DNA of 64,000 nucleotides from contig JACYXH010000129.1 of assembly GCA_026745465.1 (NCBI GenBank), positions 1,624,501-1,688,500 on the forward strand, read 5' to 3'. Positions within the stretch are counted from its first letter, which is position 1, and the number at the start of each line of letters is the position of its first letter. The notes below the pieces were generated by a model that saw only the letters and a program-made list of their open reading frames with translations, made no database searches and had not been told where the DNA came from. A program made the translations under genes and the position numbers. This document shows positions 2,241 to 44,137 of this stretch, piece after piece. The DNA is from Lota lota. Lineage: Eukaryota; Chordata; Actinopteri; Gadiformes; Lotidae.

Positions 2241-4668
2241 ATGTTTTTCGCCATGATAATTCTGAGTACAGCAAGTAAGTAAATTCCTTCTCAAATTCCA
2301 TTCCTCTCTATTTTATATAACTTAATTAAATTTAACCAGAGGTGTTTGGTGACAAAATACTTGCATTGCAGCATAGGTCTATTTCTTAATCAATGTATTT
2401 ACAAACCTAAAGCTACAAAAATAAAGTATGAATGTTCAAGACCAATTGTTCATAGTTCTTATTTCTTATTTTCTTTTTTAGTGCTGATTCTGGCTCAGGT
2501 GGGACCTAGCTTGGTCAATGTGAAATCAGCAGGACTTGGAGATACTGTTACCCTTCATTGTGAAGCTAAAGGACATAATAGCGATTATTTATACTGGTAC
2601 AAGCTAACTCCTGGATATTTTCCCCAAATGGTCGCTTCGAGAGTGTATGATACAATTGCAATCAAGCCCCCCTTTGATGTAAGGTTCAGAGGAGAAGAAG
2701 GGGCTCCTGGCTTAAATCTGATCATTCAAAACGTAACTAAAGGTGATGAAGCAAACTATTTCTGTCAACAATACCCATTTGACAAGTGGAATAATTGCAC
2801 CTTTCTGTCTGTCAAAGGTAAGATCAATCTTTTTCAATGTTTATATTCAATATCATGACAAGCATTTTAAAACATTTTGATGATAGCTGTATTTTACTGT
2901 GCAGATCCCAACGACCATAGGTTTGTCTCCCAGACTGTGGTCCAACAGCCTGTGTCGGCATCAGTTCAGCTGGGAGACCCTGTGGCTCTCCAGTGCTCTA
3001 TTACCTCCCAGAGGACGGACCACAGTAACCAGTGCCAAGGGGAACCCAGTGTATACTGGTTCAGATCTGGATCAGGACCATCACACCCTGCTGTCGTTTA
3101 CATGAATGGAAACAGGAGCGGTGAATGTCAGGATAGTTCTGGGCCTCCGTCTGCTCCACAGAGCTGTGTCTACACTCTCCCCAAGAACAATGCAGACACC
3201 TCTGATGCTGGGACTTACTACTGTGCCCTGGCAGCATGTGGGGAAGTTGTGTTTGGAAATGGAACTAAGATCGACGTTACAGGTCAGTATATTGGTGTTT
3301 TGTCAATGTAGTGTAGATTCACTCAAAACAAGTGCTTTTCATTGAATGCAACTTTGCTCTTAATGCCAAACCAAATAGTCCCAAAGAATGTCAGTTTAGT
3401 ATTAACTTTAAATCTCTGGGATTATTTGTTACATTTCAACCATAATTTCAGAAGAGGAAGTAAAAAGCCTCTGCACATTATAGCTATGCAGCGCCGTCTT
3501 TTAAATTTTTTGATCAAAACTATAAAATGGAAGAATGCAGAAAGTACAACAAAAATCCCAAAGTATGATGCAAATGAAAAAACTAAGTACACATGGATTT
3601 ACAATAAAAGGTCTTTGTGGTTGTATATTTATATGACTAAAAAGGCCCATGCCAGTGGAAATGGTCCAGAATAAAAGTGACCTAAAGCGTTCTGATGAAC
3701 CAATGTTGATTATCTGATTCTAGAACCTAAGTGGCATCTAGTTACTATGGTGCTTGGAATACTGTTGGCTTGCTGTCTGGCTGGGATTATAATCCTGTTT
3801 CTGACCAGGATTAAAAACCATGTTTGTGATCATCGCAAAGGTACAGTACATTCTTCAGAGTAGAATTTGTTGGACATAGTGTTTTTACAGACATATTTAG
3901 TGGTGTGATATGGATCTTATGTTTTAACTAAGAGCACACATATTCTTTGGTTCTTATTGTCAGGAACACTGAGTGCTTCCTGCCATGTTCCAGGTGACTC
4001 AGGGATTCAGGAACAACAGGTACATCTGTTCAACATGTTGCATTGGTAGACTTTGTCAATTACTTTGATCGTGTCATATAGAGCACGAAACAAGTCTTTT
4101 CCTGAGACATTTTATCGAATGTTGATTCTTAAAATGAATTGTTAGCTTGCAGACATGTTCTTGGCCTATTGAATGGCTTGGAGATCAAAAATGAAAATGT
4201 ATCGATGTATGTAAAAAGTGAGATGGATATGAACATTTTAGTTTTTTTCTGAACTGTTAAAGAGGGGATTTACAAGAAAGTATCGCTAATGAAACTTAAT
4301 ATTACGTTCATTTTTTGCAATTTCGAACCAACTTCCTTCACAAAGTGTAGCTACCTGGTTAAATGAATGGGTGTAGTGTTTGGTTATTGTAACACACCAG
4401 CATGTTCTAGGCCTCTGTATATGATTAGACACAGACACACCAGTAGGATTGTAGCTTTGACTTTCACTCTAGAAGAAGTGATCTCTAGTACAGCTGTGAA
4501 TCCTCAGATGTTTAGTAGTAATACAGATCTCTGTTGTAGGACAGGGAAACTGATTCCTTGAACTACGCAGCGTTGGAGTTCTCTGGCAGGAAAACCAGAG
4601 GAGGGAAGAAGAAGAGTGAAAGGACTCAGGAGAGTCTGTATTCTGCTGTGAGAGAAACCTGCCACTGA
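2241..4668 (+). CDS. nitr: Novel immune-type receptor, V-I-TM-two-ITIM form (gene 1)
   Basis: The exons are 2241-2274, 2482-2817, 2905-3282, 3724-3840, 3964-4019 and 4540-4668, all with GT/AG borders and compatible phases, giving 349 residues. Residues 1-17 form a signal peptide (MFFAMIILSTA start). Residues 18-123 are a V-like domain with the LHC, YWYK and YFC landmarks. Residues 124-249 are an I domain with six cysteines that ends in FGNGTKIDVT. A single membrane segment lies near 254-278. The tail carries LNYAAL (Tyr316) and SLYSAV (Tyr341), both fitting the ITIM pattern. NITRs are cell-surface receptors that signal inhibition through SHP-type phosphatases; that role is inferred from the family. 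The V domain belongs to the same group as gene 2. The V exon carries three cysteines and no canonical J motif. Start choice: the only in-frame ATG opening the hydrophobic leader, with phase-1 splicing that creates Met12. Confidence 0.88.
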
Positions 4669-4900
4669 AGTCCATCAACCTGGGAGTTTGTCGACTCAGG
4701 AGGCTAAAGGAGGTAGTAATGGTAGTATTGATAAGGACTTGTTTATTGTCATGAGTACATGTAGATTGTTTCTAATGTTTAGTAATGTTGCTTTGTTTGG
4801 ATCATAAAAATGTAATTGCTCATTATTTCTCATGTATTTTGTAAAGTCTATCTGTTTGATGTGCAGCAGGACTTGGCCATGAAGAAAACATTTTGCAGTT

Positions 4901-4906
4901 AATAAA
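4901..4906 (+). terminator. Candidate polyadenylation signal of gene 1
   Basis: A perfect AATAAA lies 233 bp after the stop codon. Equivalent positions in the copies at 9841, 14655 and window position 2 read AACAAA, so this hexamer may be a private mutation and the real shared signal may lie elsewhere. Confidence 0.35.
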
Positions 4907-5530
4907 TCTTGATGCCTAAAATTATACTTCTTGAATGAAAAAACAAGAGACGTTGAAGTGAGTAAAAGATGAAAATGGACAGACTGACATGCACAGGAAA
5001 TGAATCAAATTATATATAAGCTAACAATATTCAAAAAAAGAGGTCAAACAGGAAGGGAAAAGCATGAACGATACTTAGAGACCTCTGGTTCAGATCATAT
5101 CTGCTTTTTAAACCACAGTACTGACACAGCTTGGACAGGATGAGCACGCATAACAGAGCAGTGATGCTTTGCAGGCAAAACCACTGGCGTAAAGGTCACA
5201 GCGCTAGATCAGTTAACTAGACATTATAAAGGCTGCACCTTTTTATGTCTCAGAGGTCAACATTTTGATATCGGTTGTGTTGATCTTGATCCCACACAAA
5301 GTGTTTATCGTGCATGAATGTGGGTAAGCACACAAAGACTTACACACAGCAGACACACACATCTAGTCAAGAAGTCGTCCTGCACTTTTGAGCTGACAGA
5401 TGTTTCCGTTACTATAACTGTTGGGTGTCTTTCTTTGGTACTTGGTGACTAGTTACACTAATTACAGCAAGTAGGATGGGAACTGGGAGAAGGAGAAAGG
5501 TCCGATGTTGGTCTCGAACTGTTAAGATAA

Positions 5531-5775
5531 AGGTCCCCTACTTTACCACAAGGTATCATGTTGATGAGTCCTTTCTGAATATCTCCCTTTGTAACATCAG
5601 AATGTGGGAGTGTCCACCCAACTGGGAGGAGTGGGCTGGTGGACTGCATCAACTGGGAAGAGTGAGTTGATCTGTGTGTCACACATCTGAGTAGACACTC
5701 CCACTTGTATAATGTCACACAGGACTACACTTTGAAATGGCTCGTCAACACGACACCGGCCGGTAAATAGGGACG
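5531..5775. mobile_element. Foldback element, copy 2
   Basis: Same arms and loop as the copy at 631-872. The left arm begins near the TCCCCTACTTTACCACAAGG word, and the right arm ends CCGGTAAATAGGGACG. The central GTGGGAGTGT / ACACTCCCAC pair is intact. Confidence 0.65.
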
Positions 5776-6669
5776 CTATATAGAACCAAACAAGGCTAAG
5801 ATAACCAACAGATCTAAAAAGCACATGAACAAAAGGTGCTGGAAACAATAGCCAAGACATCGTTGGTTGTGTATGAAAGATTGGTGATGTGTCTCTGTAA
5901 TGGACTGATGTTGCATCTGATGCTCTCTGCAGCCCAATAAGATCCTAAGTGTATAATAATATTAAGATATTAAAATCTCTGAATTAAATTGAATCTACCA
6001 TTGTAATAAGATTGTAACAATTGTTAAAGTACTGAATTCATTAACTTTACTCTTTAGATAAAAATAATACAAATTTTAAAGTGAATCAAGTGAACATTCT
6101 CTGTTCACATACACATACTGTATATCACCGTTTAGGTTCAGTCAGTGATGTGAAATGTATGTCCATTTCCTGGTTGGTTTCTGAAGGACCTCAGCAGCAC
6201 ATCCTGTTGATACCTACAGCCAGGTCTATTTATGCTCACAAGTGTTGGTGGTGTGTGTAAAAAAGAGACAATGCCAGCCACCGCCCTCGCCTCTCAGCTC
6301 ATCTGCTGCTTGAGTCCTCGCTCTCTCTTTCCAACCCAGTGGTTAAAGAAATAGCTAGAAAGGAGGTCAGTCTAAAAGTTGTTTTATCGGAGAAGGACGA
6401 GGACCCTCGATATTCATTCAGGCTAGTTCATACATCTTCTTTATTTCCTCAAACACGTTTATCTTAACAGTGGCCAACAGAACCAAAAAGGTCACGATGG
6501 GTATTCCAGCACAGAAGCAGAAATAACAGAATGACTTGCTGAGAAGGGGTTACCATGAACACAATATTTACCCCCTGACCCCCTCCCTCCCCCAAAGTTT
6601 TAAGTGTGGAAGGAAGTGTCAAAGTCCTGAAGGAGCCCAGCTAGTGGGGCAAACTGTTGGGGTAAACGG

Positions 6670-6921
6670 TTAGCAGGAGGGGCAAACGGTTAGCAGGAGG
6701 GACAAGCCTTCTGACCCCGGGGCTCCTTGTGTGACCACAGCATTAGCGGGCAGGTGGGAAGGAGCAGGCACCTTACGCAGGTTGCTGGCATGCCACCGAG
6801 ACCTGTCTGTGAGCTGGTAGGAAGCCGGGCCCAGCTGGTGGTTAACCTGGCAGGGTGAGGACCACAATGAGCTCAGTTTATTGGCTCGTTGGGGTCCACA
6901 AGCTCTGACCCAGTCCAACAC
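6670..6921 (-). pseudogene. Fossil gypsy-type integrase C-terminal fragment, copy 2
   Basis: The DWVR...LGPASYQL...WHASNLRK region is open. About 11 bp are missing just upstream (near 6931) relative to the other copies, which shifts the frame away from the KQRFDRKH segment. Confidence 0.65.
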
Positions 6922-7014
6922 TCTGATAGCTTTGTTCTGTGTTTACTGTCAAACCTTTGTTTCCACCAGCCACAATCAAATTAAACATGAACTGCACCTC
7001 ACAGAAAACTAGGA

Positions 7015-7157
7015 GGATCATTGGCTGGCTTCATTCAGTGTCTCTAGGTTGCAGCCAATCACAGTTGGTCTATGGTATGTAAATCATGTTTTTTAAGTTC
7101 AAACCTTTCATTAGAGCGAGTACAGAGCTAGTTCAAATTCAGCACAGAAACGTGACA
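7015..7157 (+). promoter_or_regulatory. Promoter-like block of NITR gene 2
   Basis: CCAAT at 7055-7059 is followed by the ATGTAAAT octamer-like word at about 7077-7084. Spacing to the ATG matches gene 1. Confidence 0.45.
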
Positions 7158-9610
7158 ATGTTTTTCGCAGTGATAATTCTGAGTACAGCACGTAAATAAA
7201 TTCCTTCTCAAATTCCATTCCTCTCTATTTTATATAACTTATTCAAATTCAGCCAGAGGTGTTTGACAAGATAGTTGCATTGCAGCATAGGTCTATTTCT
7301 TTATCAATGTATTTACAAACCTAAAGCTACAAAAATAAAGTATAAATGTTCAAGCCCAATTGTTCATAGTTATAATTTCTTATTTTCTTTTTTAGTGCTG
7401 ATTCTGGCTCAGGAGGGACCTAGCTTGGTCAATGTGAAATCAGCAGGACTTGGAGATAATGTTACCCTTCATTGTGAAGCTAAAGAACATGATAGCGATT
7501 ATTTATACTGGTACAAGCTAACTCCTGGATATTTTCCCCAAATGGTCGCTTCGAGAGTGTATGATACAATTGCAATCAAGCCCCCCTTTGATTTAAGGTT
7601 TAGAGTAGAAGAAGGGGCTCCTGACTTGAATCTGATCATTCAAAACGTAACTAAAGGTGATGAAGCAAACTATTTCTGTCAACAATACTCACGTGACAAG
7701 TGGAATAATTGCACCTTTCTGTCTGTCAAAGGTAAGATCAATCCTTTTCATTGTCTATATTCAATATAATGACAAGCATTTTAAAACCTTTTGATGATAG
7801 CTGTATTTTACTGTGCAGATCCCAACGACCATAGGTTTGTCTCCCAGACTGTGGTCCAACAGCCTGTGTCAGCATCAGTTCAGCTGGGAGACCCTGTGGC
7901 TCTCCAGTGCTCTATTACCTCCCGGAGGACGGACCACAGTAACCAGTGCCAAGGGGAACCCAGTGTGTACTGGTTCAGATCTGGATCAGGACCATCTCAC
8001 CCTGCTGTCGTTTACATGAATGGAAACAGGAGCGGTGAATGTCAGAATAGTTCTGGGCCTCCGTCTGCTCCACAGAGCTGTGTCTACACTCTCCCCAAGA
8101 ACAATGCAGACACCTCTGATGCTGGGACTTACTACTGTGCCCTGGCAGCATGTGGGGAAGTTGTGTTTGGAAATGGTACAAAGCTGGACGTGTTTGGAAA
8201 TGGAACTAAGATCGACTTTACAGGTCAGTACATTGATGTTTTTTCTATGTAGTGTAGATTCACTCAAAACAAGTGCTTTTCATTGAATGCAACTTTGCTC
8301 TGTATGCCAAACCAAATATTCCCAAAGAATGTCAGTTTAGTATTAACTTTAAATCTCTAGGATTATTTTTTACATTTCAACCATAATTTCAGAAGAGGAA
8401 GTAAAAAGCCTCTGCACATTATAGCCATGCAGCGCAGTCTTTTTTAATTTTTGGTCAAAACTATAAAATAGAAGAATGCAGAAAGTACAACAAAAATCCC
8501 AAAGTATGATGCAATTGAAAAAACAAAGTACACATGGATTTACAATAAAAGGTCTTTCTGGTTGTATATTTTTATGACTAAAAAGGCCCATGCCAGTGGA
8601 AATGGTCCAGAATAAAAGTGACCTAAAGCTTTCTGATGACCCAATGTGATTATCTGATTCTAGAACCCTACTGGCATCTGGTTACCATGGTGCTTGGAAT
8701 ACTGTTGGCTTGCTGTCTGGCTGGGATTATAATCCTGTTTCTAACCAGGATTAAAAAGCATGTTTGTGATCATCGCAAAGGTGCAGTACATTCTTCAGAG
8801 TTGAATTTGGCGGACGTTGTGTTTTTACAGACATATTTAGTGGTGTGATATGTATTTTATGTTTTAACTAAGAGCACACATATTCTTTGGTTCTTATTGT
8901 CAGGAACACTGAGTGCTTCCTGCCATGTTCCAGGTGACTCAGGGACTCAGGAACAACAGGTACATCTGTTCAACATGTTGCATTGGTAGACTTTGTCAAT
9001 TACTTTGATTGTGTCATATAGAGCACGAAACAAGTCTTTTCCTGTGACATTTTATCGATTGTTGATTCTTAAAATGAATCGTTAGCTTGCAGACATGTTC
9101 TTGGCCTATTATTTGGCCTGGAGATCAAAAATGAAAATGTATCGATGTATGTAAAAAGTGAGATGGATATGAACATTTTAGTTTTTTTCTGAACGGTTAA
9201 AGAGGGGATTTACAAGAAAGTATCGATAATGAAACTTAATATTACGTTAATTTTTTGCAATCTCGAACCAACTACCTGTACAAAGTGTAGCTACCTGGTT
9301 AAATGAATGGGTGTAGTGTTTGGTTATTGTAACACACCAGCATGTTCTAGGCCTCTGTATATGATTAGACACCGACACACCAGTAAGATTTTAGCTTTGA
9401 CTTTCACTCTAGAAGAAGTGGTCTCTAGTACAGCTGTGAATCCTCTCAGATGTTTCGTAGTAATACAGTTCTCTGTTGTAGGACAGGGAAACCGATTCCT
9501 TGAACTACGCAGCGTTGGAGTTCTCTGGCAGGAAAACCAGAGGAGTGAAGAAGAACAGTGAAAGGACTCAGGAGAGTCTGTATTCTGCTGTGAGAGAAAC
9601 CCGCCACTGA
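7158..9610 (+). CDS. nitr: Novel immune-type receptor with duplicated J-like motif (gene 2)
   Basis: The exons are 7158-7191, 7396-7731, 7819-8223, 8664-8780, 8904-8959 and 9482-9610, giving 358 residues. Domain order is as in gene 1 and the V domain is its closest relative. Exon 3 is 405 nt instead of 378 because the end of the I domain carries FGNGTKLDV directly followed by FGNGTKIDF, an in-frame 27-bp duplication. ITIM tyrosines fall at about 325 (LNYAAL) and 350 (SLYSAV). The exon 1 donor reads GTAAATA, weaker than the GTAAGT in the other genes, which could lower splicing efficiency. Cell-surface inhibitory function is inferred from the family. Confidence 0.87.
8164..8220 (+). repeat. 27-bp in-frame duplication of the J-like segment in gene 2
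   Basis: TTTGGAAATGGTACAAAG at 8166 is followed 27 bp later by TTTGGAAATGGAACTAAG. The two units differ at a few bases, so the event is not brand new, or the units were patched by conversion from sister genes. Confidence 0.85.
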
Positions 9611-10472
9611 AGCCCATCAACCTGGGAGTTTGTGTCGCCTCATGAGGCTAAAGGAGGTAGTAATGGTGGTATTGATAAGGACTTGTTTATTGTCATGAGT
9701 ACATGTAGATTGTTTCTTATGTTTAGTAATGTTGCTTCGTTTGGATTATAAAAATGTAATTGCTCATTATTTCTCATGTATTTTGTAAAGTCTATCTGTT
9801 TGATGTGCAGCAGGACTTGGCCATGAAGAAAACATTATGCAGTTAACAAATCTTGATGCCTAAAATTATACTTCACGAATGAACAAACAAGAGACGTTGA
9901 AGTGAGTAAAAGATAAAAATGGACAGACTGATATGCACAGGAAATGAATCAAATTATATATAAACTAACAATATCAGAAGAAAACGAAGTAAAACAGGAA
10001 GGGAAAAGCATGAAAGATACTTAGAGACCACTGGGTCAGTTCATATCTGCTGTTTAAACCACAGTACTGACACAGCTTGCACAGGATGAGCACTCATAAT
10101 AGAGCAGTGATGCATTGCAGGTAAAACCACTGGCGTAAAGGTCACAGCGCTAGATCACTTGACTAGACATTATATAGGCTGCACCTTTTAAAGTCTCAGA
10201 GGTCGGAAATATATTGGTTGTGTTGATCTTGTGCCCACACAAAGTGTTTATCGTGCACGCATGTGTGTAAGCACACAAAGACTTACACACAGCATACACA
10301 CACATCTAGTCAAGAAGTCGTCCTGCACTTTTGAGCTGACAGATGTTTCCGTTACTGTGACTCTTGCGTGTCTTTCTTTGGTACTTGGTGACTAGTTACA
10401 CTAATTACAGCAAGTAGGATGGGAACTGGGAGAAGGAGAAAGGTCCGAAGGTGATCTCGAACTGTTAAGATA

Positions 10473-10710
10473 AAGGCCCCCTATTTTACCACAAGGTATC
10501 ATGTTGATGAGTTATTTCTGAATATAACCCTTTTTGACATCACAATGTGGGAGGGTCCACCCAACTGGGAGGAGTGGACTGCATCGACTGGGAGGAGTGA
10601 GTTGATCTGTGTGTCACACATCTGAGTAGACACTCCCACTTGTATAATGTCACACAAGGCTACACTTTGAAATGGCTCGTCAACACGACACAGGCTGGTA
10701 AATAGGGACC
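10473..10710. mobile_element. Foldback element, copy 3
   Basis: The left arm starts GGCCCCCTATTTTACC and the right arm ends GGTAAATAGGGACC. The loop is slightly shortened. Confidence 0.65.
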
Positions 10711-11628: not shown

Positions 11629-11832
11629 CTAACCCCAGGGCTCCTTATGTGACCACAGGAGCAGGTGGGAAGGAGCAGGCACCTTACGCAGGTTGCTGGC
11701 ATGCCACCGAGACCTGTCTGTGAGCTGGTAGGAAGCCGGGCCCAGCTGGTGGTTAACCTGGCAGGGTGAGGACCACAATGAGCTCAGTTTATTGGCTCGT
11801 TGGGGTCCACAAGCTCTGACCCAGTCCAACAC
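11629..11832 (-). pseudogene. Fossil gypsy-type integrase C-terminal fragment, copy 3
   Basis: Same DWVR to LRKVPAPS region as the other copies, but a deletion near 11660 removes the ANPVV-coding segment and shortens the open frame. Confidence 0.65.
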
Positions 11833-11930
11833 TCTGATAGCTGATGGCTTGGTTCTGGGTTTACTGTCAAACCTTTGTTTCCATCAGACACAATAATATT
11901 AACATGAACCACAACCCACAGAAAACTAGG

Positions 11931-16914: not shown

Positions 16915-18792
16915 ATGTTTTTCGCCATGATAATTCTTAGTAAAGCACGTAAGTAAATTCCTTCTTAAATTCCATTGCTCTCTATTTTATATAACTTATT
17001 CAAATTTAGCCAGAGGTGTTTGGTGACAAAATATACCGCTCAAAAAAATAAAGGGAACACTTGGAGTTACATTGTGTTGTTTAAGTGTTCCCTTTATTTA
17101 TTTTTTAGCAGTATACTTGCTTTGCAGCATAGGTCTATTTCTTAATCAATGTATTTACAAACCTAAACCTACAAAAATAAAGTATGAATGTTCAAGACCA
17201 ATTGTTAATAGTTATTATTTAATATTTTCTTTTTTAGTGCTGATTCTGGCTCAGGAGGGACCTAGCTTGGTCAATGTGAAATCAGCAGGACTTGGAGATA
17301 CTGTTACCCTTCATTGTGAAGCTAAAGAACATGGTAGCGATTATTTATATTGGTACAAGCAATCTCCTGGATATTTTCCCGAAATAATTGCTTCGAAGAT
17401 ATATGAATCATTTACAATGAAGCCCCACTTCAATTTAACATTCACAATGAAAGAAGGTGCTTCTGTCTTTAATCTGATCATTCAAAACGTAACTAAAGGT
17501 GATGAAGCAAACTATTTCTGTCAACAATACATACGTGATAACTGGAATAATTGCACCTTTCTGTCTGTCAAAGGTAAGATCAATACTTTTTTTATGTTTA
17601 TATTCAATATCATGACAAGCATTTTAAAACATTTTGATGATAACTGTATTTTACTGTGCAGATACCAACGACCATAGGTTTGTCTCCCAGACTGTGTTCC
17701 AACAGCCTGTGTCGGCATCAGTTCAGCTGGGAGACCCTGTGGCTCTCCAGTGCTCTATTACCTCCCAGAGGACGGACCACAGTAACCAGTGCCAAGGGGA
17801 ACCCAGTGTGTACTGGTTCAGATCTGGATCAGGACCATCTCACCCTGCTGTCGTTTACATGAATGGAAACAGGAGCGGTGAATGTCAGGATAGTTCTGGG
17901 CCTCCGTCTGCTCCACAGAGCTGTGTCTACACTCTCCCCAAGAACAATGCAGACACCTCTGATGCTGGGACTTACTACTGTGCCCTGGCAGCATGTGGGG
18001 AAGTTGTGTTTGGAAATGGAACTAAGATCGACGTAACAGGTCAATATATTTTGTTTCCTACTTCGTTTATTTGCTAATTATTTAATTAAGAAGACAATAG
18101 ACATTTAAGATAATAACATGTGAATATGCGTAATTCTCAGGGCATATTTGAGATTGTATTTGAAATATTTCATTGCACATGCCGTACTCGGAATGTATTG
18201 GTGCATATTACAGAAAGAATATGATCTCTACGGATTTATGATGACCCATTGTTGATTGTCTGATTCTAGATCCCCACTGTCATCTAGCGATCTTGGTGCA
18301 TCGGATACTGTTGGCTTGCTGTCTGCTTGTGATTTTAATCCTCATTCTAATCATACATTTCAGGTTTGTAAGCATGGTAACGCTACAGCACATTCAACAA
18401 AAAATTCATAAAAGGAAAGATATAAGAGCATCCCCACAACTTTGATAGAGAAGTTTCAGTATGCAAGATCCCCTACATTGATTCGACAGTACACTCTATT
18501 TTTAATTACTTTATTTTTAATAGCGCCAGAGAATTTTTTACATTATTTGTAAAAAATAACAATTTGCATAAGTGTTTGTTAGATTACTTTTAAAACAAAT
18601 CATGTCGTGTCAACTGTGAATCCTCTCAGATATTTGATAGTAATACATAGTTCTCTGTTGTAGGACAGGGAAACTGATTCCTTGAACTACGCAGCGTTGG
18701 AGTTCTCTGGCAGGAAAACCAGAGAAGGGAAGAAGAACAGTGAAAGGACTCATGAGAGTCTGTATTCTGATCTGAGAGAAACCTGCCACTGA
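16915..18792 (+). CDS. nitr: Novel immune-type receptor with charged TM and no linker exon (gene 4)
   Basis: The exons are 16915-16948, 17238-17573, 17662-18039, 18270-18367 and 18664-18792, giving 324 residues. The signal, V domain (group 2) and I domain (FGNGTKIDVT) are standard. Exon 4 is a different version: it starts DPHCHLAILVHR and continues ILLACCLLVI, so His260-Arg261 sit in or at the edge of a hydrophobic stretch (255-278). Its donor is TTT|GTAAGC, which leaves phase 0 and joins directly to the phase-0 tail exon; the 56-nt linker exon is not found in the 296-bp intron. The tail has LNYAAL (Tyr291) and SLYSDL (Tyr316), the latter differing from SLYSAV elsewhere. If the last intron is retained, the frame stays open past the donor and ends at the TGA at about 18443, giving a short basic tail without ITIMs. 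Exon 4 splicing is inferred from frame and from the matching exon in gene 8. Confidence 0.8.
17034..17117. mobile_element. Minimal Tc1-like terminal-inverted-repeat MITE in intron 1 of gene 4
   Basis: A TA-flanked palindrome of about 84 bp. The left end reads CGCTCAAAAAAATAAAGGGA and the right end is its near reverse complement (TCCCTTTATTTATTTTTTAG). The centre GGAGTTACATTGTGTTGTTT resembles the inner part of the right end of Tc1-like elements common in fish, as I recall them. No other copy of the array has this insert. There is no transposase, so it must have moved in trans or arisen by internal deletion. Confidence 0.7.
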
Positions 18793-19045: not shown

Positions 19046-19680
19046 AAAAGAAAATACGTTCAAAATGCAAAAATGTTAACGTATGTAAAGGGTTTCACAG
19101 AATGCAGTAATAAACATATGTTAAGGTATTTAAAGAAGGAAAGACTCCCGCTATCCCTTTAAGAAAGCAGTCGCGTTGTTCCAGCTCAGACGGGTCTGCT
19201 GAGGTTTGCGCCAATCAGATCGCAGCTCATTTGTAAACAGCCTCTCAGAGTCAATCGAGGTCTCGCAGGTCGGTCCCGCCTACATAAATTAACCCTTTAA
19301 GGTGAATTCCCTTGAGACGCGGTGGGACACCGTGCGCGTCACTGAAGGTCGGGCGTCGGGTTCTCGAGCACGGCAAGTTGACACACCCAAAACCAGCATT
19401 CCGTCTTTTCGGACTGCACTGCTGGTCTATTGGTTTCAGAATGTCACCAAATGTTTAAAGATAGTTGACATATTTAATATTTATATCTTCTACTTAATTT
19501 CAATGGTAACAAACATATAACTAACACCATCATTAATATTGAAAGTCAACTTTAGTTTTGGATGTACAAAGTTCAATTCTTCATGATTCTTGATTATGAC
19601 ATGACCGTTGAATGTAAATAAGGTGCCAGTGCATATAAAGGCATCAAAATGTATATTTGTTTAATAAATTCTGTACTGCG
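19046..19680. other. Unique DNA at the inversion junction of the array
   Basis: This stretch matches no other part of the window. Its middle (about 19140-19400) is richer in CpG than the surrounding array, for example CTCGCAGGTCGGTCCCGCC and GACACCGTGCGCGTCAC. It also contains an inverted CCAAT-like word and a TACATAAATTAACC word. A 72-codon open frame (19302-19520) has no recognisable features. It could be a promoter or an LTR piece, or the ancestral sequence between the two half-arrays. Confidence 0.5.
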
Positions 19681-20981: not shown

Positions 20982-23241
20982 TCAGTGGCAGGTTTCTCTC
21001 ACAGCAGAATACAGACTCTCCTGAGTCCTTTCACTGTTCTTCTTCCCTCCTCTGGTTTTCCTGCCAGAGAACTCCAACGCTGCGTAGTTCAAGGAATCAG
21101 TTTCCCCGTCCTACAACAGAGAACTGTATTACTACGAAACATCTGAGAGGATTCACAGCTGTAGTAGAGACCACTTCTTCTAGAGTGAAAGTCAAATATT
21201 ATCCTACTTCTGTGTGTGTGTGTTGCTGGTTTGTTACCATAACTAAACACTAGACCCGTTCATTTTACCAGGTAGCTCAACTGTTCAGATGGAACAAAGA
21301 TTGTCATTTGTGTCTGACTTTTTAAATACATTGGTACATTTTCATTTTTGATCACCAACACATTCAAAAGGCCAACGACATCTCTGCTCAAGAATGTTTC
21401 ATTTTAAGAATGAACAATCGATAAAACGTCACAGGATATGACTTGGTTTTGTGCTCTATGTGACACAAAGTAATTGTCAAAGTCTACCAAAGCAACATGT
21501 TGAACAGATGTACCTGTTGTTCCTGAATCCCTGAGTCTCGTGGAACATGACTGGAAGCACTCAGTGTTCCTGACAATAAGAAACGAAAAATATTAATGCT
21601 CTTAATTAAAACATGAAATACATGTCACACAACTAAATATGTCTGTAAAAACACAACGTCCGACAGAAAATATGGTGGAGAATGTACCGTACCTTTGCGA
21701 TGATCACAAACATGCTTTTTATTCCTGGTTAGAAACAGGATTATAATCCCAGCCAGACAGCAAGCCAACAGTATTCCAAGCACCATGGTAACTAGATGCC
21801 AGTAGGGTTCTAGAATCAGATAATCACATTGGGTCATCAGAAAGCTTTAAGTCACTTTTATTCTGGACCATTTCCACTGGCATGGGCCTCTTTAGTCATA
21901 AAAATATACAACCACAAAGACCTTTTATTGTAAATCCATGTGTACTTTGTTTTTTCATTTGCATCATATTTTGGGATTTTTGTTGTACTTCCTGCATTCT
22001 TCTATTTTATAGATTTGACAAAGAAATTAAAAAGACTGCGCTGCATGGCTATAATGTGCACAGGCTTTTTACTTCCTCTTCTGAAATTATATTATGAAAT
22101 ATGTTACCAAATGTTTGGTGAAACATTTGGTTTGGCATACAGAGCAAAATTGCATTCAATGCAAAGCACTTGTTTTGAGTGAACTACACTACATAGAAAA
22201 AACACCAATACACTGACCTGTAACGTTTATCTTAGTTCCATTTCCAAAAACAACTTCCCCACATGCTGCCAGGGCACAGTAGTAAGTCCCAGAATCAGAG
22301 GTGTCTGCATTGTTCTTGGGGAGAGTGTAGACACAGCTCTGTGGAGCAGACGGAGACCCAGAACTATCCTGACATTCACCGCTCCTGTTTCCATTCATGT
22401 AAATGACAGCAGGGTGGGATGGTCCTGATCCAGATCTGAACCAGTACACACTGTGTTCCCCTTGGCACTGGTTACGGTGGTCCATACTCTGGGAGGTAAT
22501 AGAGCACTGGAGAGCCACAGGGTCTCCCAGCCGAACTGATGCCGACACAGGCTGTTGGACCACAGTCTGGGAGACAAACCTATGGTCGTTGGGATCTGCA
22601 GGGTAAAATACAGCTATCATCAAAAGGTTTTAAAATGCTTGTCATGATATTGAATATAGACATTGAAATCTTTTTATCTCACCTTTGACAGACAGAAAGG
22701 TGCAATTATTCCACTTGTCACGTGAGTATTGTTGACAGAAATAGTTTGCTTCATCACCTTTAGTTACGTTTTGAATGATCAGATTAAAGACAGAAGCACC
22801 TTCTTTCATTGTGAATGTTAAATTAAAGTGGGGCTTCAATGTAATTAATTCATACAATTTCGAAGCTACAATTTGGGGGAAATATCCAGGAGATTGCGTG
22901 TACCAATATAGCTCATTGTGATTCTCTTGTTGAACTCCACAATGAAGAGTAACAGTATCTCCAAGTCCTGCTGATTCCACAGAGATCAAATGAGGACTCT
23001 CTTGGGTCTCAATCAACACTAAAAATGTAAGAAAAAAATGATTGAACTAAACATTTGTAAAACAAAAATAGCGGATTCAATTTTGTAACTAATTATATAA
23101 ATAAATAAACCTATGCTGCAAGTATGTTGTCATCAAGCACTTCTGGCTAAATTTGAATAAGTTACAAAAAAAAGAGAGAAATGGAATTTGAGAAATAATT
23201 AACTTACGTGCTGTACTCAGAATTATCATAGCGAAAAACAT
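20982..23241 (-). CDS. nitr: Novel immune-type receptor, V group 2 (gene 5)
   Basis: The exons in transcript order are 23208-23241, 22683-23018, 22218-22595, 21693-21809, 21514-21569 and 20982-21110, giving 349 residues. This is the first - strand gene and the one nearest the junction. Its V domain (YWYTQSPGYFPQIVASKLYE, KPHFNLTFTMKEGAS) resembles those of genes 3 and 4 on the other strand, while its N-terminus (QESPHLISVES) is closer to genes 6-9, so it looks intermediate. The I domain has a QSMDHRNQ variant and ends FGNGTKINVT. The tail begins DGETDS instead of DRETDS and keeps LNYAAL and SLYSAV. Confidence 0.87.
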
Positions 23242-29816: not shown

Positions 29817-29850
29817 CCCCCCCCCCCCCCCCCCCCCCCCCCGCCCCCCC
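29817..29850. repeat. Poly-C tract
   Basis: About 25 C in a row plus seven more after one G. The spacers at 24918, 34576 and 38780 have shorter runs at the same place, while the spacer at 43330 has none. Confidence 0.9.
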
Positions 29851-33100: not shown

Positions 33101-33139
33101 GTGGGTGTCGATTCATGTTAATATTATTTTGTCTGATGG

Positions 33140-35373: not shown

Positions 35374-37174
35374 TCAGTGGCGGGTTTCTCTCACAGCAGA
35401 ATACAGACTCTCCTGAGTCCTTTCACTGTTCTTCTTCCCTCCTCTGGTTTTCCTGCCATTGAACCTTAAAGCTGCGTAGTTCAAGGAATCAGTTTCCCTG
35501 TCCTACAACAGAGAACTGTGCATTACTACCAAACATCTGAGAGGATTCACAGTTGACACGACATGATTTGTTTTAAAAGTAATCTAACAAACACTTATGC
35601 AAATAGTTTATATATTTGGTTGCAAATGTATACATATCTCTGGCGCTATTAAAAATAAAGTAATTCAAAATAGAATGTACTGCCGAATCAATGTAGGGGA
35701 TCTTGCATACAGAATCTTCTCTATCAAAGTGGTGGGGATGCTCTTAAATCTTTCCTTGTATGAATTTTTTGTTGAATGTGCTGTAGCGTTACCATACTTA
35801 CAAACCTGAAATGTATGATTAGAATGAGGATTACAATCACAAGCAGACAGCAAGCCAACAGTATCCGATGCACCAAGATCGCTAGATGACAGTGGGGATC
35901 TAGAATCAGACAATCAACAATGGGTCATCATTAATCCGTAGAGATCATATTCTTTCTGTAATATGCACATATAGATTCCGAATACGGCATGTGCAATTCA
36001 ATATTTCAAATACAATCTCAAATATCCCCTAAGAATTACGCATATTCAAGTTATTATCTTAAATGTCTATTGTCTTCTTAATTACATAATTAGCAAATAA
36101 ACGAAGTAGGAAATAAAATATATTGACCTGTTACGTCGATCTTAGTTCCATTTCCAAACACAACTTCCCCACATGCTGCCAAGGCACAGTAGTAAGTCCC
36201 ACCATCAGAGGTGTCTGCATTGTTCTTGGGGAGAGTGTAGACACAGCTCTGTGGAGCAGACGGAGGCCCAGAACTATTCTGACATTCACCGCTCCTGTTT
36301 CCATTCATGTAAACGACAGCAGGGTGAGATGGTCCTGATCCAGATCTGAACCAGTACACACTGGGTTCCCCTTGGCACTGGCTACTGTGGTCAGTCCTCT
36401 GGGAGGTAATAGAGCACTGTAGAGCCACAGGGTCTCCCAGCTGAACTGATGCCGACACAGGCTGTTGGACCACAGTCTGGGAGACAAACCTATGGTCATT
36501 GGGATCTGCACAGTAAAATACAGTTATCATCAAAAGGTTTTAAAATGCTTGTCATGATATTGAATATAGACATTGAAAAAGATTGATCTCACCTTTGACA
36601 GACAGAAAGGTGCAATTAAGCCACGTGTTAACTAGGTATTGCTGACATAAATAGTTTGCTTCATCACCTTTAGTTACTTTTTGAATGATCAGATTAAAGT
36701 CAGGATCACCTTCATCCACTGTGAAACTTAAATTAAAGGGGGGCTTGATCTTAATTGTATTAAACACACTTGAAGCTATCATTTGGGGAAAATGTCCAGG
36801 AGATTGCTTGAACCAGTAGATATTATCGTTATTCCTTTTTTTAACTCCACATTGAAGAGTAACAGTATCTCCAAGTCCTGCTGAAGTCAGATAGACCAAT
36901 CGAGGACTCTCATGGGCCTGAATCAGGACTAAAAAAGAAAAGAAAAATAAGATTCATGAATAAATAACCTTAAACATTTGTTGATTTTTTTTTGTGTCTT
37001 TAGTTTTGTAAATACATAAATAAATGAAGAAATAGACCTATGCAGCAATGCTAGTTACATTCTCACCAAACACCTCTGGATCATTTAAAATAAGTTACAT
37101 AAAATAGAAAGAAAAGGAATATGAGAAATAATTAACTTACGTGCTGTACTCAGAATTATCATGGCAAAAACCAT
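35374..37174 (-). CDS. nitr: Novel immune-type receptor with charged TM and no linker exon (gene 8)
   Basis: The exons in transcript order are 37141-37174, 36593-36928, 36128-36505, 35802-35899 and 35374-35502, giving 324 residues. It pairs with gene 4: the same 98-nt TM exon (DPHCHLAILVHR, then ILLACCLLVIVI), and a donor TTT|GTAAGT that is a full consensus, supporting the splice model. The linker exon is absent. Its V domain, however, is group 3 and nearly the same as that of gene 9 (YLCQQYLVNTWLNCTF), unlike gene 4. The first tail motif is LNYAALRFNG where the others read LNYAALEFSG; the Tyr and Leu positions are kept. SLYSAV is intact. As in gene 4, the frame continues past the exon 4 donor for about 26 codons, so an ITIM-less isoform is possible. 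Confidence 0.8.
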
Positions 37175-37320
37175 TGTCACGTTTTGGCGCTGAAGCTGAG
37201 CTAGCCCTGTACTCGCTCTAATGAAAGGTTTGAACTTAAAAGACACAATTTACATACCCTAGACTAACTGTGATTGGCTGCAACCTAGAGACACTGAATG
37301 AAGCGAGCCAATGATCCTCC
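37175..37320 (-). promoter_or_regulatory. Promoter-like block of NITR gene 8
   Basis: On the - strand, ATGTAAAT at 37248-37255 and CCAAT at 37273-37277. Confidence 0.45.
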
Positions 37321-37365
37321 TAGTTTTCTGTGAGGTACGGTTCATGTTAATATAATTGTGTCAGA

Positions 37366-37668
37366 TGGAAACAAAGGTTTGACAGGAAACACAGAACCAA
37401 GCCATCAGCTATCAGAGTGTTGGACTGGGTCAGAGCTTGTGGACCCCAACGAGCCAATAAACTGAGCTCATTGTGGTCCTCACCCTGCCAGGTTAACCAC
37501 CAGCTGGGCCCGGCTTCCTACCAGCTCATAGACAGGTCTCGGTGGCATGCCAGCAACCTGCGTAAGGTGCCTGCTCCTTCCCACCTCCCCGCTAATCCTG
37601 TGGTCACACAAGGAGCCCCGGGGTCAGAAGGCTTGTCCCTCCTGCTAACCATTTGCCCCTCCTGCTAA
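37366..37668 (+). pseudogene. Fossil gypsy-type integrase C-terminal fragment, copy 8
   Basis: Open from KQRFDRKHRTKPS through DWVR and WHASNLRK, like copy 6. Confidence 0.7.
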
Positions 37669-38495
37669 CTGTTTGCCCCACCAGCTGGGCTTCTTCAGGA
37701 CTATATTGTGTGAATATTGTGTTATTGGTAACCCCTTCTCAGCAAGTCGTTCTATTAGTTGTGCTTCTGTGCTGGAATACCGGTTGTGACCTTTTTGGCT
37801 CTGTTGGCCACTGTTAAGATAAACGTGTTTGAGGAAATAAAGAAGCTGTATGATCTAGACTAAATGAATATCGAGGGTCCTCGTCCTTCTCAGATAAAAC
37901 AACTTTTAGTGTGACTTCCTTTGTAGCTATTTCTTTAACCACTGGGTTGGAAAGAGAGAGCGAGGACTCAAGCAGCAGATGAGCTGAGAGGCGAGGGCTG
38001 TGGCTGGCATTGTCTCTGTTTTACACACACCACCAACACTGGTGAGCATAAATAGACCTGGCTGTAGGTATAAACAGGATGTGCTGCTGTGGTCCTTCAG
38101 AAACCAACCAGGAAATGGACATACATTTCATATCACTGACTGAACCTAAACGGTGATATTTGTGTATGTGAATAGAAAATGTTCACTTGATTCACTTGTA
38201 ATATATATTTTTAATTTTCAAAAGACTAAAGTTAATTCAGTACTTTACCAATTTTTACAATCTTATCAAAATGGTTGATTCAATTTAATTCTGAGATTTT
38301 AATATCTTAATATTATTATTCACTTGGGATCATATTGGGCTGTAGAGCATCAGATGCAACATCAGTCCATTACAGAGACACATCACCAATCATTCATACA
38401 CAACCAATGATGTCTTGGCAATTGCTACCAGCACCTTTTGTTCATGTGCTTTGTAGATCTGTCAGTTATCTTAGCCTTGTTTGGTTCTATATAGC

Positions 38496-38736
38496 GTCCC
38501 TATTTACCGGCCGGTGTCGCGTTGACGAGCAATTTAAAAGTGTAGCCCTGTGTGACATTATAAAAGTGGGAGTGTCTACTCAGATGTGTGACACACAGAT
38601 CAACTCACTCCTCCCAGTCGATGCAGTCCACCAGTCCACTCCTCCCAGTTGGGTGGACACTCCCACATTGTGATGTCATAAAGGGATGTATTCATAAATG
38701 ACTCATCAACACGACACCTTGTGGTAAAATAGGGGC
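38496..38736. mobile_element. Foldback element, copy 9
   Basis: Runs from GTCCCTATTTACCGGCCGGT to CCTTGTGGTAAAATAGGGG. Confidence 0.65.
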
Positions 38737-39574
38737 CCTAATGTACCCAGATCGGCACCAACGCTGGACCATTTCCTTGCCCCCCCCCCCCTTCCCATCA
38801 TACTCACTGTCATAATTGTATATAGCCTCGGAGCACCAGAAAAAGACTAACAGTAGAGGAAATACCGCTCAGCTCAATAGTGTAGGACGTTTTATTGACT
38901 AGAGGTGTAAGTCTTTGTTTGGTTACACACATGCGTGCTTGAGTGACACTTTGTTTGGGTACAAGATTAACCCAACTGGTGTATTTTTGACTTTCACGCC
39001 ATGAAAAGGTGCAGCCTATATAGTGTATAGCCTCATGATCTTTTGCTGTGACCGTTAGATCTGTGGTTTGAGCTGCAAAGCATCACTTACCTTGTAAGGA
39101 ATGCTCATCCTGTGCTAGCTGTGTCAGTACTGTGGTTTTAAAAGCAGAAATGTACTGAACCATCGGTCTCTAAATATCTCTCACTATGACCCCATCCGGT
39201 ATTACCTTGTTTTTTGGATATTGATTGTTTAAATCTAATTTGATAGCTGTCTTTGTATGTCAGTGTGTCCATTCTCATCTTTTACCCACTTCTCAAAGTT
39301 TCTTTATTTCATTTTTTGTAAGAAAACATGTACATTTTAACTGTAAAAGAAAGGATATGGACTATCTACTGCTGCATATCAACCAGATAGGCTTTACAAA
39401 AGACAGCATCATAAATGATGAGCAATTAAATGTTTATGATCCAAACGAAGCAACATTACTAAACATTAGAAACAATCTACATGTACTCATGACAATAAAC
39501 AAGTCCTTATCAATACCACCATTGCTACCTCCTTTAGCCTCCTGAGGCGACACAAACTCCCAGGTTGATGGACT

Positions 39575-41883
39575 TCAGTGGCAGGTTTCTCTCACAGCAG
39601 AATACAGACTCTCCTGAGTCCTTTCACTGTTCTTCTTCCCTCCTCTGGTTTTCCTGCCAGAGAACTCCAACGCTGCGTAGTTCAAGGAATCAGTTTCCCT
39701 GTCCTACAACAGAGAACTGTATTACTACGAAACATCTGAGAGGATTCACAGCTGTAGTAGAGACCACTTCTTCTAGAGTGAAAGTCAAATATTATCCTAC
39801 TTCTGTATGTGTGTTGCTGGTTTGTTACCATAACTAAACACTAGACCCGTTCATTTGACCAGGTAGCTCAACTGTTCAGATGAGAACAAAGATTGTCATT
39901 TGTGTCTAACTTTTTAAATACATTGGTACATTTTCATTTTTGATCACCAATACATTCAAAAGGCCAACGACATCTCTGCTCGAGAATGATTCATTTTAAG
40001 AATGAACAATCGATAAAACGTCACAGGATACGACTTGGTTTTGTGCTCTGTGACACAAAGTAATTGTCAAAGTCTACCAATGCAACATGTTGAACAGATG
40101 TACCTGTTGTTCCTGAATCTCTGAGTCTCGTGGAACATGGCAGGAAGCACTCTGTGTTGCTGTCAATAAGAACCAAAGAATATATATGCTCTTAATTAAA
40201 ACATGAAATACATGTCACACTACTAAATATGTCTGTCAAAACACAACGTCCGACAGAAAAAATGCTGGAGAATGTGTTGTACCTTTGCGATGATCACAAA
40301 CATGCTTTTTAATCCTGGTTAGAAATAGGATTATAATCCCAGCCAGACAGCAAGCCAACAGTATTCCAAGCACCATGGTAACTAGATGCCACTTAGGTTC
40401 TAGAATCAGATAATCACATTGGGTCATCAGAAAGCTTTAGCTCACTTTAATTCTGCACCATTTCCACTCGCATGGGCCTCATTAGTCATAAAAATATACA
40501 ACCATAAATACCTTTTATTGTAAATCCATGTGTACTTAGTTTTTCCATTTGCATCATACTTTGGGATTTTTGTTGTACTTTCTGCATTCTTCTATTTTAT
40601 AGTTTTGCCAACAAAAGAAAATACTGCGCTGCATGGCTATAATGTGCAGAGGCTTTTTACTTCCTCTTCTGAAATTATGGTTGAAATGTAAAAAATAATC
40701 CCAGAGATTTAAGGTTAAAACTAAACGGACATTTTCTTTGGGAACGTTTGGTTTGGCATACAGAGCAAAGTTGCATTCAATGCAAAGCACTTGTTTTGAG
40801 TGAATCTACACTACATAGAAAAAACGCCAATATACTGACCTGTAAGGTCGATCTTAGTTCCATTTCCAAACACAACTTCCCCACATGCTGCCAGGGCACA
40901 GTAGTAAGTCCCAGCATCAGAGGTGTCTGCATTGTTCTTGGGGAGAGTGTAGACACAGCTCTGTGGAGCAGACGGAGGCCCAGAACTATCCTGACATTCA
41001 CCGCTCCTGTTTCCATTCATGTAAACGACAGCAGGGTGAGATGGTCCTGATCCAGATCTGAACCAGTACACACTGGGTTCCCCTTGGCACTGGTTACGGT
41101 GGTCCGTCCTCTGGGAGGTAATAGAGCACTGTAGAGCCACAGGGTCTCCCAGCTGAACTGATGTCGACACAGGCTGTTGGACCACAGTCTGGGAGACAAA
41201 CCTATGGTCGTTGGGATCTCCACAGTAAAATACAGCTATCATTAAAAAGTTCTTAAAATGTTTGTAATGATATTGAATATAAACATTGAAAAAGATTGAT
41301 CTCACCTTTGACAGACAGAAAGGTGCAATTAAGCCACGTGTTAACTAGGTATTGCTGACATAAATAGTTTGCTTCATCACCTTTAGTTACTTTTTGAATG
41401 ATCAGATTAAAGTCAGGATCACCTTCATCCACTGTGAAACTTAAATTAAAGGGGGGCTTGATCTTAATTGTATTAAACACACTTGAAGCTATCATTTGGG
41501 GAAAATATCCAGGAGATTGCTTGAACCAGTGGATATTATCGTTATTCCTTCTTTTAGCTCCACAATGAAGAGTAACAGTATCTCCAAGTCCTGCTGAAGT
41601 CAGATAGACCAATCGAGGACTCTCATGGGCCTGAATCAGGACTAAAAAAGAAAAGAAAAATAAGATTTATGAATAATTAACCCTAAACATTTGTTAATTT
41701 TTTAGTGTCTTTAGTTTTGTAAATACATAAATAAATGAAGAAATAGACCTATACTGCAATGCTAGTTACATTGTCACCAAACACCTCTGGATCATTTCAA
41801 ATAAGTTACACAAAATAGAAAGAAAAGGAATAAGAAGGAATTTACTTACGTGCATTACTCAGAATTATCATGGCAAAAAACAT
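39575..41883 (-). CDS. nitr: Novel immune-type receptor, V group 3 (gene 9)
   Basis: The exons in transcript order are 41850-41883, 41306-41641, 40840-41217, 40283-40399, 40104-40159 and 39575-39703, giving 349 residues. The leader is MFFAMIILSNA. The V domain is almost the same as that of gene 8 (IHWFKQSPGYFPQMIASSVF, YLCQQYLVNTWLNC). The I domain ends FGNGTKIDLT. Two splice acceptors are unusual: exon 3 follows GTGGAG instead of GTGCAG, and exon 5 begins ATQSAS after a CAG in place of the usual GTLSAS. The TM exon starts EPKWHLV as in gene 1. The tail keeps LNYAAL and SLYSAV. Confidence 0.85.
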
Positions 41884-42030
41884 TGTCACGGTTTTGGCGC
41901 TGAAGCTGAGCTAGCCCTGTACTCGCTCTAATGAAAGATTTGGATTTAAAAGACACCATTTACATACCATAGACCAACTGTGATTGGCTGCAACCTAGAG
42001 ACACTGAATGAAGCAAGCCAATGATCCACC
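41884..42030 (-). promoter_or_regulatory. Promoter-like block of NITR gene 9
   Basis: On the - strand, ATGTAAAT at 41958-41965 and CCAAT at 41983-41987. Confidence 0.45.
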
Positions 42031-42075
42031 TAGTTTTCTGTGGGTTGCTGTTCATGTTAATATAATTGTGGCTGA

Positions 42076-42378
42076 TGGAAACAAAGGTTTGACAGGAAAC
42101 ACAGAACCAAGCCATCAGCTATCAGAGTGTTGGACTGGGTCAGAGCTTGTGGACCCCAACGAGCCAATAAACTGAGCTCATTGTGGTCCTCACCCTGCCA
42201 GGTTAACCACCAGCTGGGCCCGGCTTCCTACCAGCTCACAGACAGGTCTCGGTGGCATGCCAGCAACCTGCGTAAGGTGCCTGCTCCTTCCCACCTCCCT
42301 GCTAATCCTGTGGTCAAACAAGGAGCCCCGGGGTCAGAAGGCTTGTCCCTCCAGCTAACCGTTAACTCGTCCTGCTAA
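42076..42378 (+). pseudogene. Fossil gypsy-type integrase C-terminal fragment, copy 9
   Basis: Open through KHRTKPS, DWVR and WHASNLRK. It ends just before the VNTR. Confidence 0.7.
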
Positions 42379-42520
42379 CCGTTTGCCCCTCCTGCTAACC
42401 GTTTGCCCCTCTTGCTAACTGTTTGCCCCTCCTGCTAACCGTTTGCCCCTCCTGCTAACCGTTTAGCCCTCCAGCTAACCGTTTGCCCCACCAGCTAACC
42501 GTTTTGCCCCACCAGCTGGG
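42345..42520. repeat. VNTR, eight to nine units of about 20 bp
   Basis: Repeats of CCTCCTGCTAACCGTTTGCC with small variations (CCAGCTAACC, CTTGCTAACT). Confidence 0.85.
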
Positions 42521-43055
42521 CTCCTTCAGGACTTTGACACTTTCTTCCACACTTAAACTTTGGGGGAGTTTTTTTTTACACACACCACCCACACTTGTAA
42601 GCATAAATAGACCTGGCTGTAGGTATCAACAGGATGTGCTACTGAGGTCCTTCAGAAACCAACCAGGAAATGGACATACATTTCACATCACTGACTGAAC
42701 CTAAATGGTGATGTTTGTGTATGTGAACAGAGAATATTCACTTGTTTCACTCGTTAAATTTGTATTCTTTTTATCTCGAGTGGAGTTCATGAATTCAGTA
42801 CTTTAACAATTGTTACAATCTTATTACAATGGTTGATTCAATTTAATTCAGAGATTTTAATATCTTAATAGTATTATTCACTTGGGATCATATTGGGCTG
42901 CAGAGAGCATCAGATGCAACATCAGTCCATTACAGAGACACATCACCAATAATTCATACACAACCAATGATGTCTTGGCAATTGTTACCAGCACCTATTA
43001 TTCAGTTGCTTTGTAGATCTGTCAGTTATCTTAGCCTTGTTTGGTTCTATATAGG

Positions 43056-43294
43056 GTCTATTTACCGGCCGATGTCGCTTTGACGAGCCATTTCAAAGTG
43101 TAGTCCTGTGTGACATTATACAAGTGGGAGTGTCTACTCAGATGTGTGACACACAGATCAACTCACACCTCCCAGTCGATGCAGTCCACCAGCCCACTCC
43201 TCCCAGTTGGGTGGACACTCCCACATTGTGATGTCATAAAGGGAGATATTCAGAAAGGAATCATCAACATGACACCTTGTGGTAAAATAGGGGA
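43056..43294. mobile_element. Foldback element, copy 10
   Basis: Runs from GGTCTATTTACCGGCCGATG to CCTTGTGGTAAAATAGGGGA. Confidence 0.65.
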
Positions 43295-44101
43295 CCTTTA
43301 TCCTTCCAGTACTAGACCACCTTCGGACCTTTCTCCTTCTCCCAGTTCCCATCCTACTTGCTGTAATTAGTGTAACTAGTCACCAAGTACCAAAGAAAGA
43401 CACGCAAGAGTCACAGTAACGGAAACATGTCAGCTCAAAAGTGCAGGACGACTGCTTGACTTGATGTGTGTGTCTGCTGTGTGTAAGTATTTGTGTGCTT
43501 ACACACATTCATGCACGATAAACACTTTTTGTGGGCACAAGATCAACACATCCAATATCAATATTTTTACCTGACACATAAAAAGGTGCAGCCTATATAA
43601 TGTTTAGTCAACTGATCTAGCGCTGTGACCTTTACGCCAGTGGTTTTACCTGCAAAGCATCACTGCTCTGTTATGCGTGCTCATCCTGTGCAAGCTGTGT
43701 CAGTACTGTGGTTTGAAAAGCAGATATGAACTGAACCAGAGGTCTCTAAGTATCTTTCATGCTTTTCCCTTCCTGTTTTACCTCGTTTTTGGATATTGTT
43801 AGTTTATATCTAATTTGATTTATTTCCTATGCATATACACAAGTATAAGTTTAGGCATCAAGATTTGTTAACTGCATAATGTTTTCTTCATGGCCAAGTC
43901 CTGCTGCACATCAAACAGATTGGCTTTACAAAAGACATGACAAATGATGAGCAATTCAATGTTTATGATCCAAATAAAGCAACATTACTAAACATTAGAA
44001 ACAATCTACATATACTCATGACAATAAACAAGTCCTTATCAATACCACCATTACTACCTCCTTTAGCCTCGAGGTGACACAAACTCCCTGGTTGATGGAC
44101 T

Positions 44102-44137
44102 TCAGTGGGAGGTTTCTCTCACAGCAGAATACAGACT
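44102..44137 (-). pseudogene. Truncated tenth NITR copy (last 11 codons only)
   Basis: The - strand reads SLYSAVRETSH and stop, the end of the tail exon with the second ITIM. Similarity to the array stops exactly after ACAGACT (44137), and the next bases start an LTR-like sequence. No upstream exon is present beyond the break, so this is a remnant. Confidence 0.85.

Follow-up and report, generated by a model that had tools for sequence, protein, structure and literature searches.

A cluster of probable NITR genes in Lota lota with a near-identical I exon and a second transmembrane cassette

Analysis of a stretch of 64,000 nucleotides from the genome of Lota lota (hereafter the window; positions 1624501-1688500 of contig C129, in an assembly of 575,287,041 bases and 867 contigs) suggests with high confidence that it represents the distal end of a cluster of 19 NITR genes. 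The I exon of these genes is little diverged both within the cluster and between it and a second cluster on another contig (C425), three of the copies carry a second type of transmembrane (TM) exon, and one gene, here called gene 8, is a mosaic. In fish, NITRs are regarded as the counterparts of natural killer (NK) receptors, and rapid birth-and-death evolution is known for them; the locus is of a known kind, and its unusual part is the apparent exchange of modules together with the homogenised I exon. Neither this exon nor the mosaic gene nor the second TM cassette had been noticed in the original prediction, made from the window, which described nine intact NITR genes with shared exon sizes and a uniform architecture of V, I, TM and immunoreceptor tyrosine-based inhibitory motif (ITIM), in a mirrored, tail-to-tail array with a truncated tenth copy.

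Comparison of the window with itself revealed pieces of the repeated unit, at least 400 nt long, that match at ~77-95% identity on both strands, far beyond chance. Exon searches with gene 1 placed nine copies, four on the + strand (at 2241, 7158, 12075 and 16915) and five on the - strand (starting at 23241, 28037, 32945, 37174 and 41883), and all nine have an open frame to the stop and GT/AG borders. As had been predicted, the two arms meet tail-to-tail, gene 4 ending at 18792 and facing the end of gene 5 at 20982, and a remnant of the C2 exon is what is left of a tenth copy. The splice borders of all gene models, given below with exons named L, V, I, TM, C1 and C2, were read from the sequence.

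2241-4668, + strand: NITR gene 1, 349 aa; L 2241-2274, V 2482-2817, I 2905-3282, TM 3724-3840, C1 3964-4019, C2 4540-4668
7158-9610, + strand: NITR gene 2, 358 aa; L 7158-7191, V 7396-7731, I 7819-8223, TM 8664-8780, C1 8904-8959, C2 9482-9610
12075-14422, + strand: NITR gene 3, canonical six exons, 349 aa
16915-18792, + strand: NITR gene 4, variant, 324 aa if spliced at TTT/GTAAGC; L 16915-16948, V 17238-17573, I 17662-18039, C2 18664-18792
18270-18367, + strand: variant TM exon of gene 4, 98 nt, with His-Arg
20982-23241, - strand: NITR gene 5, canonical six exons, 349 aa
25717-28037, - strand: NITR gene 6, canonical six exons, 349 aa
30633-32945, - strand: NITR gene 7, canonical six exons, 349 aa
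35374-37174, - strand: NITR gene 8, variant and mosaic, 324 aa if spliced at TTT/GTAAGT; V 36593-36928 (gene 9-like), C2 35374-35502
35802-35899, - strand: variant TM exon of gene 8 (gene 4-like), 98 nt, with His-Arg
39575-41883, - strand: NITR gene 9, canonical six exons, 349 aa
44102-44137, - strand: tenth-copy remnant, consisting of the final 36 nt of C2; homology to the array stops at 44137/44138

When the flanks were searched, ten further + strand copies (a to j) were found in the 90 kb to the left of the window (15 kb of it masked) and none in the 60 kb to its right (5 kb of it masked). As far as the unmasked sequence goes, the whole cluster therefore consists of 19 copies and is lopsided, with 14 on the + strand and five on the - strand. 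Nine is correct as a count within the window and not as the size of the array, and the mirrored layout has to be given up; both arose because the window edge cuts the array. Eight of the ten left copies (c to j) have exons resembling those of the window copies, while in a and b the V domain is divergent, at about 42-44% identity to gene 1, and the I exon of b is broken.

The canonical exon sizes (34/336/378/117/56/129 nt for L/V/I/TM/C1/C2, 349 aa) are exact in genes 1, 3, 5, 6, 7 and 9, that is in six of nine, and do not apply to genes 2, 4 and 8. In gene 2 the I exon is 405 nt, 27 nt longer than in the others, and a 27-nt in-frame duplication has doubled its FGNGT end (8150-8223), as is also the case in left copy h; a similar doubled FGNGT end of the I exon was observed in left copy e. 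A model of gene 2 with a shorter I exon contains six internal stops and was discarded; the frame is open once the I exon is taken as 405 nt. In genes 4 and 8 no C1 exon was found at E<=0.5, giving five-exon models, and the order L/V/I/TM/C1/C2 is complete in the other seven.

According to passages of the medaka NITR paper (PMC2442602), the family features are a six-cysteine I domain, which was the criterion by which the medaka NITRs were found, a J or J-like end, ITIMs and L/V/I/TM/C1/C2 exons. In all nine genes of the window the cysteine columns C30, C43, C74, C87, C106 and C111 of the I domain are invariant, and so are F, G, G and T of its J-like end, which reads FG(N/S)GT(K/M)(I/L)(D/N)(V/I/L) and in most copies is not an exact FGXGTXLXV; an alignment of the nine V exons showed no J-like end on them. 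The V-set profile (PF07686) scored 42.3 and 40.1 bits for the V domains of genes 1 and 9 against a cut-off of 26, and in these two, the ones examined, it was above the cut-off for both V and I exons. The tail contains two ITIMs (LNYAAL plus SLYSAV, ILYSAV or SLYSDL) in nine of nine genes, with the proviso, for genes 4 and 8, that their 98-nt exon is spliced to C2 in frame. What the same passages tell of medaka and zebrafish NITRs agrees with this locus in the V and six-cysteine I domains, the J-like end, the TM exon and the C1/C2 exons with ITIMs, in the presence of several clusters and in a Spondin-family gene on the same contig, and the NITRs of medaka chromosome 10 likewise have V and I on separate exons; the tandem 14+5 array and the I exons that are near-identical within and between clusters distinguish the present case (PMC2442602). 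A large NITR cluster is also described, though not exon by exon, in parts of a herring study, where it sits in a high-diversity, copy-number-variable region (PMC11088111). A literature search in open full text for NITRs both tandem and inverted returned no title about a NITR array.

With the I domain as query, the genome yielded 37 matches, of which 21 are on C129 (19 copies), 13 on C425, the second NITR cluster, and three weaker ones on C19; NITRs likewise lie at three places in medaka, as stated in PMC2442602. The one gene read on C19 (L037, 1872-2726, - strand), a third NITR-like locus, seems to carry its V and six-cysteine I domains within a single open frame, and its I domain is 34% identical to that of the array. 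A single-exon V+I structure was considered for the C425 copies (open frames of ~317 aa) and rejected, as the V-I intron merely reads open in the pieces examined. C129 also has a Spondin_N gene, about 319 kb away from the array, which is consistent with the linkage of published NITR clusters to SPON2 reported in PMC2442602. The published linkage groups are SPON2/FGFRL1 and MAP4K2/MEN1/RTN3.

To describe the divergence within the cluster, 136 pairs of the 17 copies c to 9 were compared (a and b left out). The synonymous divergence (dS) was 0.030 for the I exon and 0.163 for the V exon, and the distance in the V-I intron was 0.106; the I exon was less diverged than V in 127 of the 136 pairs and less than the V-I intron in 125, with a bootstrap interval for the I/V ratio of 0.11-0.35. 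Between C129 and C425 the dS of the I exon was 0.056 (17 versus two copies), and it differed by 3-9% per 60-nt window compared with 29-65% for windows in the flanking introns (four versus four copies), which barely align between the two clusters. At 362 sites of the I exon there are three fixed differences and four polymorphisms shared between the clusters (17 versus 3 of the 13 C425 copies), and the low-divergence block coincides with the I-exon borders. These data point to gene conversion as the process that would homogenise the I exon within and between clusters. The C2 exon is also little diverged within C129; among the nine genes of the window the mean non-synonymous divergence (dN) of this short ITIM exon, 0.041, exceeds the mean dS, 0.026, and does so in 23 of 36 pairs. 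In the passages at hand of PMC2442602 the medaka authors regard concerted evolution as less likely to be primary; this was the only paper found in open full text on NITRs and concerted evolution, and no title on NITRs was among the matches listed for gene conversion in teleosts.

Gene 8 is a mosaic, gene 9-like on the outside with the TM cassette of genes 4 and e inside. Its V exon differs from that of gene 9 at 5 of 111 residues and shows no synonymous change, and its 3' spacer is nearest to the one of gene 9 (distance 0.031). In the 420 nt before C2, on the other hand, it lies at 0.057 from e and 0.065 from gene 4 compared with 0.365 from gene 9, and a sliding comparison placed the switch points close to the I-exon end and to C2. 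The V type of genes 4 and e also occurs in the canonical copies i and 3. Taken together these kinships show the cassette on two V lineages, each of which has canonical siblings.

The variant TM exon common to genes 4, 8 and e encodes His-Arg near the N-terminal end of a hydrophobic stretch, whose 19-residue peak begins after the Arg. Searching the genome with this exon gave seven matches, three on C129 and four on C425. His-Arg is retained in all six copies read, i.e. genes 4, 8 and e and three of the four on C425, while the fourth C425 match (59% identity) was not among these, and the copies of the two clusters are 90-94% identical in DNA over 71-97 nt. A degenerate copy in L036 has lost the His-Arg stretch, the AG acceptor of the exon is missing in left copy e and in C425 copy L040, and in C425 copies L040 and L041 V is followed by the variant TM exon, with no I exon found in between. 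The exon ends in two overlapping donors 4 nt apart. Use of the one giving 98 nt joins C2 in frame and includes both ITIMs, whereas the 94-nt donor, as worked out by hand, shifts the frame and leads to a stop after seven residues. Both GTs are, by eye, kept in seven of seven copies, L036 included, and the sequence alone thus does not settle which donor is chosen. A read-through of the exon as a conserved short tail was also considered and rejected, being open in genes 4 and 8 and broken in e.

Zebrafish Nitr9 and medaka NITR9 are presented, in passages of PMC2442602 and PMC3463160, as activating NITRs without ITIMs. Genes 4 and 8 resemble these types in having a positive residue in or beside the TM segment, but differ in that the ITIM exon is kept beside the cassette and in that the Arg is situated just outside the 19-residue hydrophobic peak. 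A similar exchange is suggested, in part of a study of macaques, for activating KIRs, thought to have arisen by recombination with KIR2DL4 that brought in a TM Arg (PMC8102735). These are also Ig receptors in which an exchange of TM and tail introduces an Arg, although they form another family and the fish form keeps its ITIM exon. A search in open full text for NITRs as paired receptors found no paper.

Could the genes belong to another teleost family of Ig receptors, such as DICP, NILT, LITR or CD300-like? V-set domains and ITIMs occur there too and Pfam does not separate such families, yet the six-cysteine I domain with a J-like end, present in all nine genes, and the Spondin_N gene on C129 make this very unlikely. 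Rearranging immunoglobulin or T-cell receptor V segments, which share the V-set fold and have J-like ends, can practically be dismissed: a consensus scan found no site resembling a recombination signal sequence (RSS) in 94.2 kb of the array, while in the same genome the same scan found at least one RSS at each of the eight top-scoring V-set loci among 150 listed matches, and here every one of 17 V exons terminates at a GTAAG or GTGAG splice donor and each full unit contains TM and ITIM exons. Some observations do weigh against the interpretation as a whole. The NITR name was derived from family features and genome context and not from an alignment with published NITRs; Spondin_N matches occur on four contigs (C129, C429, C659 and C216), with SPON1 and SPON2 not told apart, and the published NITR neighbours CSTF2 and MEN1 are located on C429 and C232, respectively, and not on C129, so that it is C429 that holds both a Spondin_N gene and CSTF2. 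In searches against solved structures, antibodies fill the best 60 of 5631, 5459 and 1891 matches, with no NITR structure among those. Finally, diversifying selection on V is suggested but not significant, the ratio pN/pS at hand-chosen CDR-like (complementarity-determining region) codons being 1.34 with a bootstrap interval of 0.82-2.37. With these points counted, the predicted NITR identity is still well supported by the family features and the genome context.

Turning to the arrangement and its evolution, repeats so similar are hard to assemble, which might suggest that the opposed arm is an assembly error. This is highly improbable, since matched pieces of opposite arms differ by ~7-23%, the window contains no N, and the 3' spacers of genes 6-9 lie within 0.031-0.058 of each other and at least 0.21 from the nearest + unit, although gene 5 lacks this spacer type. 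The low divergence of the I exon could instead reflect nucleotide constraint, by the protein together with splicing signals, and the I-exon borders of the low-divergence block fit such an idea. The three codon positions, however, differ about equally (0.031, 0.023 and 0.023) and dN/dS is 0.7-0.8, which makes protein constraint a poor explanation, and the few fixed differences and shared polymorphisms between the clusters also speak against it; constraint is thus considered unlikely, and gene conversion is preferred. It is a more serious possibility, if still an improbable one, that genes 4 and 8 are decaying copies in which the changed TM exon has no function, as the missing C1 and the lost acceptors of e and L040 could indicate. 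Against decay stand the open frames of genes 4 and 8, the retention of His-Arg at such high DNA identity across two clusters and the occurrence of the cassette on two V lineages.

Outside the genes, a block situated at 1814-2053, upstream of the ATG, and its six equivalents are only 0-3% diverged among seven canonical units, far below the introns. No match to it was found in the C425 pieces examined; it is possible that it acts as a shared promoter or enhancer. The few short matches to RUNX/ETS motifs in the block were given no weight. The spacers also contain a 20-bp minisatellite (TTGCCCCTCCTGCTAACCGT-like or its complement) in about two to eight copies, at window positions 1736, 6659, 11570, 23707, 28496, 33404, 37633 and 42343. 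The remaining parts of the array are:

1-2240, + strand: spacer; the window opens inside the array, 225 bp past the C2 exon of the next left copy
19064-19675, no strand: central 612-bp stretch between the opposed arms, matching no unit
41884-44101, - strand: spacer from gene 9 to the tenth-copy remnant

Beyond the array, a 58-bp tandem repeat is located at 45360-45643 (4.9 copies, 99% alike), and the regions 46599-47132 and 53851-54258 share translated sequence in opposite orientation, perhaps as parts of a mobile element. Of ten stretches compared with Pfam, seven were open reading frames (ORFs) selected from the many in 44-64 kb, two from 46599-47132 included, and none of these seven matched at E<=0.1; Rfam at gathering thresholds gave no match in the window. 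The array is flanked on its left by the 3' end of a gene which we take to be SLIT-like, for which Pfam gives only a sub-threshold cystine-knot match. To the right of the window are a gene whose single open stretch contains nine cadherin repeats, read as FAT-like, and a melatonin receptor 1A-like gene.

Each full copy would encode a germline, non-rearranging type I receptor with a signal peptide, a V domain, a six-cysteine I domain, a TM helix and a tail with two ITIMs. Phosphorylated ITIMs recruit phosphatases, and judging from this and from the family, the V domain would meet the ligand and the tail would, when phosphorylated, bring in phosphatases, the receptors most likely being inhibitory and carried by NK-like or other lymphoid cells. 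The nitr genes of zebrafish are, as given in part of PMC5340972, markers of and restricted to an NK-like cell population. Evolution of the cluster is modular: V exons diverge while I and C2 are kept near-identical, most likely via gene conversion, and the TM cassette situated between I and C2 is exchanged, giving similar V domains with two membrane segments (8 versus 9, and 4 and e versus i and 3). The sign of signalling by the His-Arg forms may differ from that of the canonical ones. A doubtful extension would be a cassette system of fish NITR clusters, in which I (and C2) exons homogenised by conversion, in the case of I even from cluster to cluster, act as handles that move an old His-Arg TM cassette between V lineages, yielding pairs of receptors with similar V and different signalling, and in which the alternative donors, giving an ITIM tail or a short one lacking ITIMs, could provide one gene with both signs. 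More generally, an array with diverging V exons, an I exon near-identical in and across clusters and a TM cassette that passes between V lineages would show germline receptors changing ligand and signal independently of each other, in parallel with the macaque KIRs.

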